Below are positions 17,880 to 44,336 of a stretch of DNA of 64,000 bases, piece by piece (position 1 is the first letter of the stretch; each line of letters starts with the position of its first letter). Source of the stretch: Akkermansia muciniphila (GTDB taxonomy: Bacteria; Verrucomicrobiota; Verrucomicrobiia; Verrucomicrobiales; DEV007). Made by a program: the position numbers and the translations under genes. The stretch is taken from the NCBI GenBank assembly GCA_945883495.1, contig CAMCXS010000011.1:1-64000 (forward strand), read 5' to 3'. The notes under the pieces are model-generated. The model saw only the letters and a program-made list of their open reading frames with translations. It was not told the DNA's origin and searched no databases.

Positions 17880-18137
17880 TCAGGCGGAAAGCATCTCGGA
17901 ACCGAGTGGCTCCGGGGTGTGATCGACCGTGACCGTGAGGCGGCGCGCCCCAGGCGTGGCTTCACGGAAGGCCTCGTCACGATTCACCTCAAAGGCGATC
18001 GCGATCGAATCGCTGAGATTGGCAATGGCTTCCGCCTCGCTCTCGGCTTCCGCGACGATTCCCGGAATTTCCGCGCAACTTGCTACAAATCCCCCGTCCT
18101 CGGATCGGGAAACAACCGCAGTGAATTCTCCATGCAT
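17880..18137 (-). CDS. HicB-like antitoxin-family protein, orphan
   Basis: An 85-residue protein starting MHGEFTAVVSRSEDGGFVAS. The pattern F-x-A-x-V-x-x-S-E-D-G-G-F-V-A-x-C-x-E-I-P-G-I, followed by EAEAIANLSDSI, is the HicB/UPF0150 fold, a degraded RNase-H-like domain that normally neutralises HicA mRNA interferase toxins. There is no C-terminal DNA-binding domain, and no HicA-like gene is adjacent (17780-17879 and 18138-18300 hold none). It may be a solitary HicB-fold protein, as is common in environmental bacteria, or the relic of a toxin-antitoxin pair. A start 9 codons upstream is also possible. Confidence 0.75.
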   Translation of the reverse strand: MHGEFTAVVSRSEDGGFVASCAEIPGIVAEAESEAEAIANLSDSIAIAFEVNRDEAFREATPGARRLTVTVDHTPEPLGSEMLSA

Positions 18138-18336
18138 GTTGGCATCGTAACGAAACCGACACATTGCGCAAGCGACGAAAGCCTAAAAATTTAGACCTGT
18201 TAGTATTCTGGGGACAACATGTGAATAACTGGCGGGCGGCCGATCTCGTCGCAAAGCGGCCCTTGGCAGAGCTGGCCGTTCACGCGAGGTGAGGCCGAAA
18301 ATTCTTTCGCAATGTCTCCTCACGCGTGAGCGCGCC

Positions 18337-18570
18337 TCCGAACAACTTTCGCCGGTGCGGTCCATCGATGAGTGCGGGTCCGAACAACTTTCGCAGGTGC
18401 GGTTCATCGATGAGCGCGGGTCCGAACAACTTTCGCCGGTGCGGTTCATCGATGAGCGCGGGTCCGAACAACTTTCGCGAGTGCGGTTCATCGATGAGTG
18501 CACGTCCGAAAAACTTTCGCGAGTGCGGTTCATCGATGAGTGCACGTCCGAAAAACTTTTCGGAGGTCTT
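18337..18570. repeat. 42-bp direct tandem repeat array, about 5.5 units
   Basis: Five units of exactly 42 bp begin at 18337, 18379, 18421, 18463 and 18505, with a partial sixth at 18547. Each starts tccgaa and carries tttcgc and the palindrome catcgatg. Units 4 and 5 share agtgcacg ends, showing stepwise duplication. The decamer ctcacgcgtg flanks the array at 18319-18328 and 18571-18580, and 18290-18336 looks like a decayed unit. Because 42 is a multiple of 3, several frames stay open on both strands (about 14-residue peptide repeats). No start, ribosome site or domain supports translation. It lies 53 bp beyond the 3' end of the DUF1501 gene. Confidence 0.85.
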
Positions 18571-18632
18571 CTCACGCGTGTGTGCACGTTTCCAACAGCG
18601 GGCGTCGAGCTGGGGGCCAAGCCGATAGATGT

Positions 18633-20099
18633 TTAGCCGATGACTTCCCGGATCGGGTCGGCTCCTTCAACGCCGACGAGCTTTTGATCGAGACCGCCGT
18701 AGAAATAGCTCAAGCCGTCCGGGTCCAGGCCGAGAAGGGTCAGGATCGTCGAGTGCAGATGCTTGACGTGATAGCGGTTTTCCACCGCCGCGCTGCCAAG
18801 CTCATCGGTGGCTCCCACGGAGACCCCGCCTTTGACGCCGCCGCCGGCCATCCACATGGTGAACCCGTAGGCGTTGTGGTCGCGGCCGGTGCCTTTTTCG
18901 TATTCCGCCGTCGGTTGGCGTCCGAATTCACCGCCCCAAACGACAAGCGTTTCTTCGAGCAGGCCGCGCCGTTTCAAATCTTGGAGGAGGCCGGCGATGG
19001 CTTTGTCGGTGGCGCCGGCGTGGTGGGTGTGGTTCTTCTCCAGATCCCCGTGGGCGTCCCAGTTGTCATCGTTGTGGGCGCCGCCGGAGTAAATCTGGAT
19101 GAAGCGCACGCCGCGTTCCACCAAGCGCCGCGCAAGGAGGCATTTGCGGCCGAAATCCTCGGTTTGCGGCTGGTCGATCCCGTAAAGGCGCTTCGTTTCC
19201 TCGCTTTCCTGGTTGAGATCGATCGCTTCCGGCGCGCTGACTTGCATGCGATACGCCAACTCGTAACTGGCGATCCGCGCCGCGAGGTTGCTGTTGTCCG
19301 GCCGCGCGGCGAGGTGGGATTGGTTCAGCTGGTTCAACGAATCGATGACCATGCGTTGCCCGGTTCGCTCCATGCCGGCGGCGTTGGAGAGGTTGAGGAT
19401 CGGCTCGCCATGGGAGCGGAAGACGGTGCCTTGGTAACCGGCCGGCATGAAGCCCGAGGTCCAGTTCTTGGCGCCGGAGATCGGGCCACCGGATTGATCG
19501 AGCATGACCACGTAACCCGGAAGGTTCTCGTTTGCGGAGCCGAGTCCGTAGTTCACCCAGGAACCGAGCGATGGTTTGCCGCTGATGACCGACCCGCAGT
19601 TCATCATGAGCAACGCGGAGCCGTGGATTGGCGAATCCGCGGTCATCGAGTGGATGAACGCGATGTCGTCGACGCATTGACCGACGTGGGGAAAGAGGTC
19701 GCTGACCCATTTTCCGCACTGCCCGTATTGTTTGAACTTCCACTTGGGCTCGACGATGCGCCCCTGGTTGCGTTTGCCGCCGCGGCCGAAGGTTTTGACG
19801 TCGATGGTTTTGCCGTCCATCCCGTACATCCCCGGCTTGTAGTCGAAGGTGTCGATGTGGCTCGGGCCACCGTACATAAATAGGAAGATGACATTCTTGG
19901 CCTTGGCCGGGATCATCGGAGGCTTCACCGCCAAGGGATTGGCCGCCGCCGTGGCCGCGTTGACGGAACCGAAGAAGCCGTCTTGGGACAGCAGGCCCGC
20001 CAGCGCAAGGGCTGGGAAGCCGGCTCCGGCGGTGTGGAGGAATTCGCGGCGGCGCAGGTTTCCGCAAAAGCTGCCTTTGGGTTTGCTCGAAGGGTTCAT
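18633..20099 (-). CDS. DUF1501-domain protein with Tat signal
   Basis: A 488-residue protein starting MNPSSKPKGSFCGNLRRREF. The twin-arginine motif (RRREF) is followed by a hydrophobic stretch, suggesting Tat export. The rest matches the sulfatase-like DUF1501 fold common in Planctomycetes and Verrucomicrobia: KNVIFLFMYGGPSHIDTFDY near the start, the middle segment LPGYVVMLDQSGGPISG, and GRKCLLARRLVERGVRFIQI. DUF1501 proteins belong to the alkaline phosphatase/sulfatase superfamily, but the reaction is not established. The gene follows the DUF1549/DUF1553 gene by 10 bp on the same strand; this two-gene pairing is a hallmark of PVC genomes. The two probably act together in the periplasm, possibly on polysaccharides. 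Confidence 0.93.
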   Translation of the reverse strand: MNPSSKPKGSFCGNLRRREFLHTAGAGFPALALAGLLSQDGFFGSVNAATAAANPLAVKPPMIPAKAKNVIFLFMYGGPSHIDTFDYKPGMYGMDGKTIDVKTFGRGGKRNQGRIVEPKWKFKQYGQCGKWVSDLFPHVGQCVDDIAFIHSMTADSPIHGSALLMMNCGSVISGKPSLGSWVNYGLGSANENLPGYVVMLDQSGGPISGAKNWTSGFMPAGYQGTVFRSHGEPILNLSNAAGMERTGQRMVIDSLNQLNQSHLAARPDNSNLAARIASYELAYRMQVSAPEAIDLNQESEETKRLYGIDQPQTEDFGRKCLLARRLVERGVRFIQIYSGGAHNDDNWDAHGDLEKNHTHHAGATDKAIAGLLQDLKRRGLLEETLVVWGGEFGRQPTAEYEKGTGRDHNAYGFTMWMAGGGVKGGVSVGATDELGSAAVENRYHVKHLHSTILTLLGLDPDGLSYFYGGLDQKLVGVEGADPIREVIG

Positions 20100-37413: not shown

Positions 37414-37471
37414 TCATGCGCAGTCCGGTCTCATCCACCCCAATCCGCTCCCAAATCTGGGGGAATCGTCC

Positions 37472-37764
37472 ACCGGACGCCGGAACGACGATTCGCCGTT
37501 TCGGGAAGTGGCACCGGACGCAGGAACGACGTTTCCCCCGTTTTGGGGAGTGGCACCGGACGCAGGAACGACGATTCCCCCGTTTCGGGAAATGCCACCG
37601 GAAGCGGGAACGACGCTTCCCCCGAATCGGGAAGTGCTCCCGGACGCCGGAACGACGATTCCCCCGTTTCGGGAAGTGCTTCCGGACGCCGGAAAGGCCA
37701 TTCCCCCGTTTCGGGAGGTGAATCGGACGCGGGGAAGATGATTACGCCGTTTTCTCGGCGAAAT
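37472..37764. repeat. 42-bp tandem repeat array at the 3' end of the 37742-38428 gene, about 7 units
   Basis: Units begin at 37472, 37513, 37555, 37597, 37639, 37681 and 37723. The first is 41 bp and the next five exactly 42 bp. Each holds cggacgc, gaacgacgatt and the hairpin cccgtttcggg. The last unit runs into the final codons and stop of the minus-strand gene, so the array probably arose by slippage or duplication of that gene's 3' end. The same array type recurs at 43941-44236, again next to a copy of this gene's tail. No translation signal supports the open frames inside. Confidence 0.88.
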
Positions 37765-38428
37765 CACCCTTCACCACTTTCGAAGTGTCGGCGCCGGAGC
37801 GCTTGGAGGGATAAAGATTGGGGAAGAGCCGGTCGGCCACGAGGCGGCCCCACTGCTTGCGGGCGTCGAGGTAATTGGCTTCGTATTTCCGGCGCAGGGC
37901 GCTTTTTGCGATGTCTTCCTCTGCTTCGGCGGCTTTTTGGGCGCGAATGGCTTCGCGGTGCATGGTGAGGGCTTCCCGGACCGCTTGGGCGGCTTCACGC
38001 AACTTGGCGGCATGAGGCGCCAGGTCATGTCCGCTGCCGAGCAGGTCCAGTTTCTTGGCCAAGGCATCGACGGCATCTGGCTCATCGGTGCGGGGCAGAT
38101 CAATGACGGAACTGAAGCCGCCGCTGGGAAACAGATCGGGAAGAGCTGGCGCGGTGGGGTTTGAGCGGTCGTGCTGCCTCGCCGAATCAAAGAGGTTGCG
38201 CACCGCGTCATCCAAATCCCCATCCGCCGCCACGACGGCATCGAGGGCCGCCTGCGCATCGAGCACGCGTTCTTCGCAAAGCTGCCGCTTTTGCGCGAGA
38301 TCGGTGATCAAGGGTTCGATGCCCTTGATCAGCTCCTCACATCGGTATCGGCGCAGCAAGCGCACGTGACGGCGAGAACCATTGACGACAAGGAAGGCGG
38401 AGTCACGCTCCGAAAGCATTCGAGGCAT
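37742..38428 (-). CDS. Helical protein of unknown function
   Basis: A 228-residue protein, MPRMLSERDSAFLVVNGSRR. I recognise no family. Most of it is predicted helical and partly coiled-coil: the central part (QKRQLCEERVLDAQAALDAV; AAKLREAAQAVREALTMHRE; AIRAQKAAEAEEDIAKSALR) is Ala/Glu/Arg-rich, and the C-terminus (PNLYPSKRSGADTSKVVKGD) is basic. There is no signal peptide or membrane helix. It lies 125 bp downstream of the LRR-Roc-COR-TIR gene on the same strand and may be its cotranscribed partner. A truncated copy of its last 26 codons lies at 44215-44292, so the gene has been duplicated within this island. Confidence 0.7.
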   Translation of the reverse strand: MPRMLSERDSAFLVVNGSRRHVRLLRRYRCEELIKGIEPLITDLAQKRQLCEERVLDAQAALDAVVAADGDLDDAVRNLFDSARQHDRSNPTAPALPDLFPSGGFSSVIDLPRTDEPDAVDALAKKLDLLGSGHDLAPHAAKLREAAQAVREALTMHREAIRAQKAAEAEEDIAKSALRRKYEANYLDARKQWGRLVADRLFPNLYPSKRSGADTSKVVKGDFAEKTA

Positions 38429-38553
38429 AAGATCGGGGAAGTTCGAGTGAAGTGTATCCGGTCAGGAGAATCTTGGCGGATACGGTGAGAATGGGTACCC
38501 GGTGAGGTCAAAGATCAAGGGCGGAATGTGAGGAAATTCGGTTGCCGGGGAGG

Positions 38554-43112: not shown

Positions 43113-43319
43113 AGGCAGAAGCGGAGATTGCACTCACTGGAAGACCAAATCGCGAAAGTAGGGTAGGGTGACGGCAACTACGTCGGTCGATTTCGCTCCA
43201 TGGTTCGAGGCTGGCAAAGGTTGCGCGGCCGTTACTAAATCCGGTTGTGTTCAACCACAGTGCAGATTCTTAACTGTCACCTTCTTAGTTGTCTCCTGTG
43301 CGCCGGAACGATGGGTTAC

Positions 43320-43392
43320 GGTCGGATCACAGATCCAACCTACGAAACTGACGCGACTAGCCTTCAACGTAGGTTGGACCTGTGGCCCGACC
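43320..43392. repeat. Imperfect 25-bp inverted repeat (73 bp in total)
   Basis: The arm 43320-43344 (ggtcggatcacagatccaac then ctacg) pairs with 43368-43392 at about 22 of 25 positions, around a 23-bp loop. It ends 70 bp upstream of the FGE pseudogene start. It resembles the taggttgg/gcccgacc class of interspersed palindromes seen in PVC genomes; whether it regulates the next gene is unknown. Confidence 0.65.
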
Positions 43393-43462
43393 GATCCAGT
43401 CTCACAAAACCGAGGATTGGCCCTTCAGCTTCGCGGCGCGTAGTGGAATTCCTCCCCGATCT

Positions 43463-43940: not shown

Positions 43941-44236
43941 TAAGGACGCGGGAACGCGCATTCCGAAGTTTCGGGAGCGGCGCGGGGACGCGGGAAAGAC
44001 GATGCTGAAATTTCGGGAAAGGCACTCGGATGCGGGAAGAACGGTTCCGCAGCTTCAGGAACGGCTACCGGACGCAGCCGTGAGCGCTCCGCCGTTTCGG
44101 GACGGGCGATCCGACGCAGGAAAGACGAGTCCTCCGATTCAGGAAGCGCTACCTGACGCCGGAAAGACCGTTCCCCCGTTTCGGGAGCGCGAACGGACGA
44201 AACAAAGACGATTCCACCATTTTCTCTGCGAATTCT
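43941..44236. repeat. 42-bp tandem repeat array, second copy, about 6-7 units
   Basis: The anchor gga/cga/tga recurs at 43944, 43986, 44028, 44070, 44112 and 44154 (exactly 42 bp apart), with a last unit near 44195. The unit is the same as in the 37472-37764 array (ttcggga, g-a-c-g-c-a-g-g-a-a, cg-ttccccc) but more diverged. The array runs into the remnant of the gene tail at 44215-44292, reproducing the arrangement of the first array. Confidence 0.85.
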
Positions 44237-44292
44237 CCCTTCGCCACTTTGGATGTGTCGGAGCCGGAACGTTTCGTGGGGAGGAGATTGGG
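44215..44292 (-). pseudogene. Duplicated C-terminal fragment of the 37742-38428 gene
   Basis: Read leftward from 44292, the sequence gives PNLLPTKRSGSDTSKVAKGE then FAEKMV. It aligns with the end of the gene at 37742-38428 (PNLYPSKRSGADTSKVVKGD then FAEKTA) at about 20 of 26 residues. The original stop is replaced (gtg gaa) and the frame continues into the 42-bp array. No more upstream homology is visible. It marks a segmental duplication of gene tail plus array. Confidence 0.85.
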
Positions 44293-44336
44293 CCGCGCGC
44301 GTTGGAAACCGAGTGACATCACCCACCGCCTGAGCG

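Follow-up and report, generated by a model that had tools for sequence, protein, structure and literature searches.

Intergenic tandem arrays that share a 42-bp length across largely unrelated sequence families in an Akkermansia muciniphila genome

Tandem repeats are usually put down to slippage, which sets no common length. Bacterial minisatellites (MIRU/VNTR and the cyanobacterial LTRR) form one or a few sequence families. Centromere and iteron arrays consist of tandem sites in helical register beside parR- or rep-like genes, and MITE-like non-autonomous elements are recognised by dispersed copies, conserved ends and empty orthologous sites. The REP/BIME-2 repeats with their RAYT partner genes provide a further comparison (PMC4210602, PMC3733652, PMC2817692). 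We describe here arrays that resemble the latter in being short, intergenic, in part palindromic and also tandem, in lying at 3′ ends and in convergent gaps, in forming species-specific families, and in having a partner gene flanked by its own repeats. They differ in keeping a fixed period of 42 or 21 bp across unrelated families, and where REPs have a Y1 HUH enzyme the partner here is an orphan helical protein. Our literature searches found nothing to the point on intergenic 42-bp arrays, and within them no precedent was found for a fixed length with free sequence and an orphan partner.

The window is the whole stretch of 64,000 nucleotides analysed here (on contig C11), and its features are given in Table 1. 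An earlier note, made from the letters alone, had described downstream of the DUF1501 gene a tandem array of 42-bp units that carry a palindrome and are flanked on both sides by a decamer, and all three claims were borne out. TRF placed the array at 18337–18559 with a period of 42, 5.3 copies, 94% matches, zero indels and a score of 348, and TCCGAA opens units at 18337, 18379, 18421, 18463, 18505 and 18547. The palindrome CATCGATG is present in all five 42-bp core units. The decamer CTCACGCGTG lies at 18319–18328 and 18571–18580, and its two occurrences are the palindromes of two end modules, which are degenerate and akin to the core units. Each module of this element, which we call F1, has two dyads, one of the CGAA..TTCG type and, ∼21 bp on, a loop-free palindrome, which is TCATCGATGA in the core units; in the end modules it reads CTCACGCGTGA(G). 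A CRISPR array was ruled out, as the window units run head-to-tail without spacers. An Rfam search of the window gave a tRNA as its sole match. The product of the 94-aa gene on the other side of the element had no Pfam or NCBIfam match; it resembles HicB-type antitoxins. Upstream of that gene, a block at 18195–18245 (AGTTATTCACA-GTTGTCCCCAGAATACTAACAG) is nearly identical in three species and resembles two DnaA boxes.

Table 1. Coordinates of the features discussed in the window
Feature	Position	Strand	Remarks
94-aa gene, other side of element	17880..18164	-	conserved in L186 and L187
Stretch found here, lacking at the corresponding site of two genomes of the same genus	18231..18645	.	~415 bp
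F1 left end module (43 bp)	18295..18337	+	CGAAA..TTTCG dyad, CTCACGCGTGAG palindrome
Five 42-bp F1 core units	18338..18547	+	each with CGAA..TTCG dyad; CATCGATG palindrome ~21 bp away
F1 right end module (42 bp)	18548..18589	+	CCGAAAAACTTTTCGG dyad and CTCACGCGTG
DUF1501 gene, 3′ end towards element	18633..20099	-	Pfam PF07394, E 2.9e-153
Duplicated block: array, gene and ~108 bp upstream	37459..38536	.	82% identical to C7 (L081:12590-13668)
F2 array, period 42	37460..37757	+	TRF at 37470-37752; last unit overlaps orphan-gene stop codon
Orphan 228-aa helical protein gene	37742..38428	-	adjoins 37-kb array
F2 array, spacing 42 at 43944-44195, beside orphan-gene fragment	43944..44240	+	
Orphan-gene fragment (residues 193-224)	44218..44313	-	

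The gap between the DUF1501 gene and the 94-aa gene measures 25 bp in one genome of the same genus (G001) and 28 bp in another (G002), compared to ∼415 bp here, and we therefore consider the window array to be a lineage-specific insertion. The gene order is also kept without the element in V1-115 (L186) and REEB427 (L187), at ∼76% DNA identity; as these two assemblies are perhaps identical to G001 and G002, the site was counted as empty in two genomes and not in four. The extra DNA exceeds the F1 element by ∼65 and ∼55 bp. Neither of the two sister gaps read contains a precursor unit. Judging from the sequence comparison, F1 likely inserted behind the DUF1501 gene after the species split from its genus-mates, the formal alternative being a deletion in the sisters. 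Three other arrays face empty sites as well, namely an F1 copy at C18:16.7k (35 bp in G002 vs 773 bp), a 43-bp array (L077; ∼72 bp in G002 vs 402 bp) and the L155 array (∼120 bp in G001 vs 1911 bp). Sister sites were thus empty for all four arrays that allowed a judgement. This count excludes L025, whose flanks fall on different contigs, L027:932 (flanks split or single) and L086 (unclean matches).

We searched the whole genome (6.46 Mb in 206 contigs) with positions 18280–18600 by blastn at E ≤ 1e-3 and obtained seven F1 copies: the window copy, four on C18 and one each on C161 and C12. All follow the layout left end–[42-bp core]n–right end, with n from 0 to 6 (none in the C12 copy, one at C18:24.7k, and 4, 5 or 6 in the remaining ones), and their ends are conserved across the seven copies. 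The likeness of units is 0.77 within an array and 0.74 between arrays. F1 is absent from 56 other genomes, two of them of the same genus (E ≤ 0.001), and plasmids, phages and viral contigs gave no match. In its dispersed copies, conserved ends and empty orthologous sites F1 resembles the MITE-like elements; unlike these, it has no long terminal inverted repeat, its internal unit number varies, and no target-site duplication was seen by eye at the window site. The core-less copy on C12 (L037:11020–11105) lies directly behind a gene that resembles DUF1501 by sequence.

The period survey covered 1,650,529 bases of the genome (identity of at least 68% over 84 bp, lags 12–260). Out of 57 repeat regions, 33 had periods of 21, 22, 41, 42 or 43 bp or near multiples of these: 20 of period 42, seven of 21, two of 41, and one each of 43, 22, 64 and 125 (3 × 42 − 1). 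The remaining 24 are spread over 18 periods, the commonest being 18 (n = 4) and 72 (n = 3). When the window and the stretches fetched for known matches are left out, the 21/42 kind makes up 23 of 43 regions, or ∼16 per Mb. Lag 42 occurs at 30 places in the 1.65 Mb; the other leading lags are multiples of 42, or 21, 63, 105 and 147, and non-multiples of 21 occur at most five times. The outcome that the earlier note had named as speaking against it, many other periods being equally common, was thus not found. The length shared by the window array and the arrays at 37 and 44 kb is no coincidence; the sequence of the window array differs from theirs. Local shuffles of 850 kb gave zero windows with 68% identity at any lag from 15 to 130. 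In relatives, ∼1.0 Mb from nine genomes held three regions of the 21/42 type, two of which are 21-bp arrays of G001 (L128, L133) that appear by eye to be coding repeats. The third, in G014, of another genus in the same family, is an intergenic array (L105:840–1105; dyad p 0.0015) with near-perfect 18-bp palindromes, CTGGGTACACGTACCCAG, every 21 bp.

The sequences of the units are mostly unrelated. Grouping of the 33 arrays by blastn gave ∼21 groups, 13 of them single. By profile comparison, 8 of the 21 ungapped 42-bp arrays join one loose group around F2, the family to which both the 37-kb and the 44-kb array (each of period 42, as the earlier note had it) belong, and nine clusters remain. This F2 group has profile links to L025, L073, L155 and L023:9530 (z 5 to 12); between F1 and F2 there is no blastn match. 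Representatives of different families agree on average at 18.7 of 42 positions in their best match, compared to 18.3 for random intergenic 42-mers (P 0.02), and the 21-bp arrays occur in six families. Genome-wide, the intergenic arrays have in common a length of 42 (or 21) bp and not a sequence. Like minisatellites, they are intergenic tandem repeats that change in copy number; unlike minisatellites, they show one length and many sequences.

We compared the positions of the arrays with gene calls from a purpose-made mini gene caller (no published program was used; one pass was made at a looser threshold). Among the 33 arrays, 28 could be classed, as 15 tandem, 11 convergent and 2 divergent, the other five being four at locus edges and one in a called ORF; by another count, three of the 33 regions lie inside a called gene. 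The background of gaps of at least 100 bp was 247 tandem, 57 convergent and 138 divergent. Arrays are thus enriched in convergent gaps (Fisher p 2.4e-4) and depleted in divergent ones (p 2.8e-3), and an array lies near the 3′ end of 18 of 1214 called genes and near the 5′ end of 4. Placement at 3′ ends is therefore general, and divergent promoters are avoided. The more particular claim that each array lies just past a minus-strand gene stands for the 18-kb and 37-kb arrays and fails for the 44-kb array. The genes on either side of the latter are both on the plus strand, the left one having its 3′ end 130 bp away; a minus-strand gene fragment, however, directly adjoins this array with its 3′ end. 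REPs prefer the same gene-end and convergent places (PMC3733652). As the preference is shared, the location bias marks tolerance or function at gene ends and not a family. A separate 26-nt inverted repeat, with arms 88% complementary and 23 nt between them, lies at 43319–43393 of the window.

F1 is a non-coding, palindrome-based element. Of 42 matched sites of its palindromes, which include a few chance matches, 24 are centred on TCGA and 11 on CGCG. Both centres are self-complementary, so that several bases have changed and the symmetry has been kept. The dyad columns are less variable than the rest (entropy 0.43 vs 0.90). In the whole set, 11 of 33 arrays had a significant dyad relative to column shuffles (p < 0.05; the families are not independent) and 22 did not. 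Dyads with even centre gaps score above those with odd ones, and double-stranded sites therefore fit better than hairpins. As to phasing, the observations on the suggestion that 42 bp stands for four helical turns point both ways: 42 and 21 dominate, and 31–32 and 52–53 are absent among the assigned periods, whereas no 21-bp or 10-bp rhythm was found inside the 42-bp units. Dyads spaced by 21 bp (mean z 1.92) score no better than those spaced by 11 bp (1.95), and periods of 41, 43 and 22 in 4 of the 33 arrays count against exact phasing. The idea of 42 as a dimer of 21 was rejected, the lag-21 signal being absent. The mean predicted curvature of the 33 arrays was not significantly elevated (z 0.47), and six arrays reached at least 2.9.

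The 37-kb array adjoins an orphan gene, whose stop codon lies inside the last unit of the plus-strand F2 array. This gene of ∼228 codons is present in the genome as four full copies and one fragment, every one of them abutting a 42-bp array. F2 neighbours the full copies at C11:37.7k, C7:92.9k and C157:0.3k (at the last, F2 is known from short matches at 941–1145) and the fragment at 44.2k, and a divergent copy at C18:31.0k, 42% identical, adjoins an F1 array. Because the three F2 gene copies are mutual duplicates, the gene–array link amounts to about two independent cases against a background of 1.5%; most arrays have no orphan gene alongside. Between two copies dN/dS is 0.12 and the differences fall 19/10/67 by codon position, and the protein is therefore real and constrained. 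The gene is missing from 18 near relatives and was not found in 386 other genomes of the phylum, save for one weak match of 52 residues. The best Pfam hit of the protein (RIP, E 0.011) was under the cut-off, and NCBIfam, PDB sequences, plasmids and viral contigs gave none above it. An AlphaFold model built from three sequences has long helices (mean pLDDT 74.5); a search for related folds returned none at E ≤ 1e-3, and no DNA-binding domain was recognised. With tandem sites in helical register next to a gene whose product is a putative binder, the arrays recall those of centromeres and iterons. The present arrays differ from these in being chromosomal, dispersed and of many families, and in lying behind the gene and not before it.

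The reading that we favour, at a little below an even chance, is that the arrays are helically phased, palindromic, predicted protein-binding sites that spread in a REP/BIME-like manner as gene-plus-array and array-only copies. It starts from what was observed: how the element is built, the vacant sister sites, the locked length, the position at 3′ ends, the lack of coding and an array beside every orphan-gene copy. A dimeric DNA-binding protein would recognise the units as palindromic sites; for F1 and F2 this is perhaps the orphan protein. The sites would repeat at whole helical turns, four or two, and hence face one way. Spread could have occurred as gene-plus-array or array-only copies, much as REP/BIME repeats relate to RAYT genes, with the unit number then changing locally. 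At gene ends the arrays may form roadblocks when bound or serve to handle supercoils, or may be tolerated selfish DNA. Against this reading weigh the 22 arrays that lack a significant dyad, the unexceptional score of the 21-bp dyad spacing, the periods of 41, 43 and 22, the ordinary mean curvature and the many arrays with no orphan gene as neighbour.

Two explanations are serious rivals for the cause of the length lock. One is a mutational ruler that serves no function: in this lineage some process would duplicate 42 or 21 bp of arbitrary intergenic DNA in tandem while selection clears the promoters. It could involve a polymerase, two nicks a fixed distance apart, or slippage or exchange under helical constraint. 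The near-random dissimilarity of the families, the many singletons and the species-specific arrays are what such a process would leave, and the location bias fits plain promoter avoidance. However, F1 and F2 occur as multi-copy families scattered over the genome, with conserved ends or a gene partner, and are not local duplications, the two sister gaps lack a precursor unit, and dyads exceed shuffles in a third of the arrays. We regard this explanation as possible but unlikely. The other is an inherited period, in which one ancestral gene-plus-array element spread and concerted evolution replaced the unit sequences fast while the period stayed. It would account for an orphan gene beside both F1 and F2, whose arrays are unrelated and whose proteins are 42% identical, for the profile links of the F2 group, and for a between-family likeness slightly above control. 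That excess is tiny, however, and since 21-bp arrays occur in six families while the 42-bp units have no 21-bp rhythm, at least two periods would need two origins; we hold it to be rather unlikely.

Three other proposals were weighed. That these are true REP/BIME elements mobilised by a RAYT (Y1) transposase would agree with the shared location bias (PMC3733652), with the palindromes and with the Y1 genes of the genome, one of which lies between two F2 arrays on C7. The Y1 genes, though, are on C7, C9, C23, C76, C27, C97 and C41 and on none of the F1 contigs (C11, C18, C161, C12), and it is because of this result for a cognate RAYT that F1 was not filed as REP/BIME. The C7 gene, moreover, adjoins its own 247-bp palindromic repeat, and the dyads of F1 are loop-free. 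REPs carry a GTAG/GGAG or CGTC tag at the foot of the palindrome. On reading the F1 modules, no GTAG/GGAG foot shared by all was seen; CGGAGG precedes the right-end palindrome, ACGTC precedes most left-end palindromes, and core units have neither. The proposal is improbable in our estimate. Hairpins acting at the RNA level, as terminators or mRNA stabilisers, fit the 3′-end location and the strong folding of some arrays (L151, L169 and L027:11760). The earlier note had likewise named structured RNA as something to test. Folding is uneven and unremarkable on average (mean z −0.98 and −0.68 over 33 arrays, using rough consensus units uncorrected for indels), neither a terminator nor a promoter was found at the window array, and the loop-free F1 palindromes would give short stems at most; such a role is quite improbable. 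The note's idea that 42 bp reflects 14 codons was rejected. Several frames are open, which follows from 42 being a multiple of 3; against 14-residue protein repeats stand the intergenic position of the arrays, with few regions inside called genes, the periods of 41, 43 and 22, and 26 F1 units without codon rhythm (entropy 0.66/0.52/0.75 by position), and coding is scarcely credible.

Unrelated arrays with one period call for either a duplication that measures length or selection for helical phase, and either cause would inform in general how short intergenic DNA arises and persists. The orphan gene, each copy of which adjoins an array, provides a concrete candidate for the acting protein. A further conjecture, which we consider doubtful, is that of a novel repeat-propagating system: the orphan helical protein, which is unrelated to the transposases found in this analysis, would recognise and multiply the arrays of its own family, measuring off four turns (42 bp) whatever the sequence, and so litter gene ends. 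Other repeats of the genome lie beside Y1 genes: a Y1 (RAYT-like) transposase gene at L081:14058–15481 stands next to a 247-bp tandem array of palindromic REP-like units, and a 72-bp tandem array comes right after a second Y1 gene (L085:9137–9902). At L155:1998–3199 there are two further 72-bp arrays.
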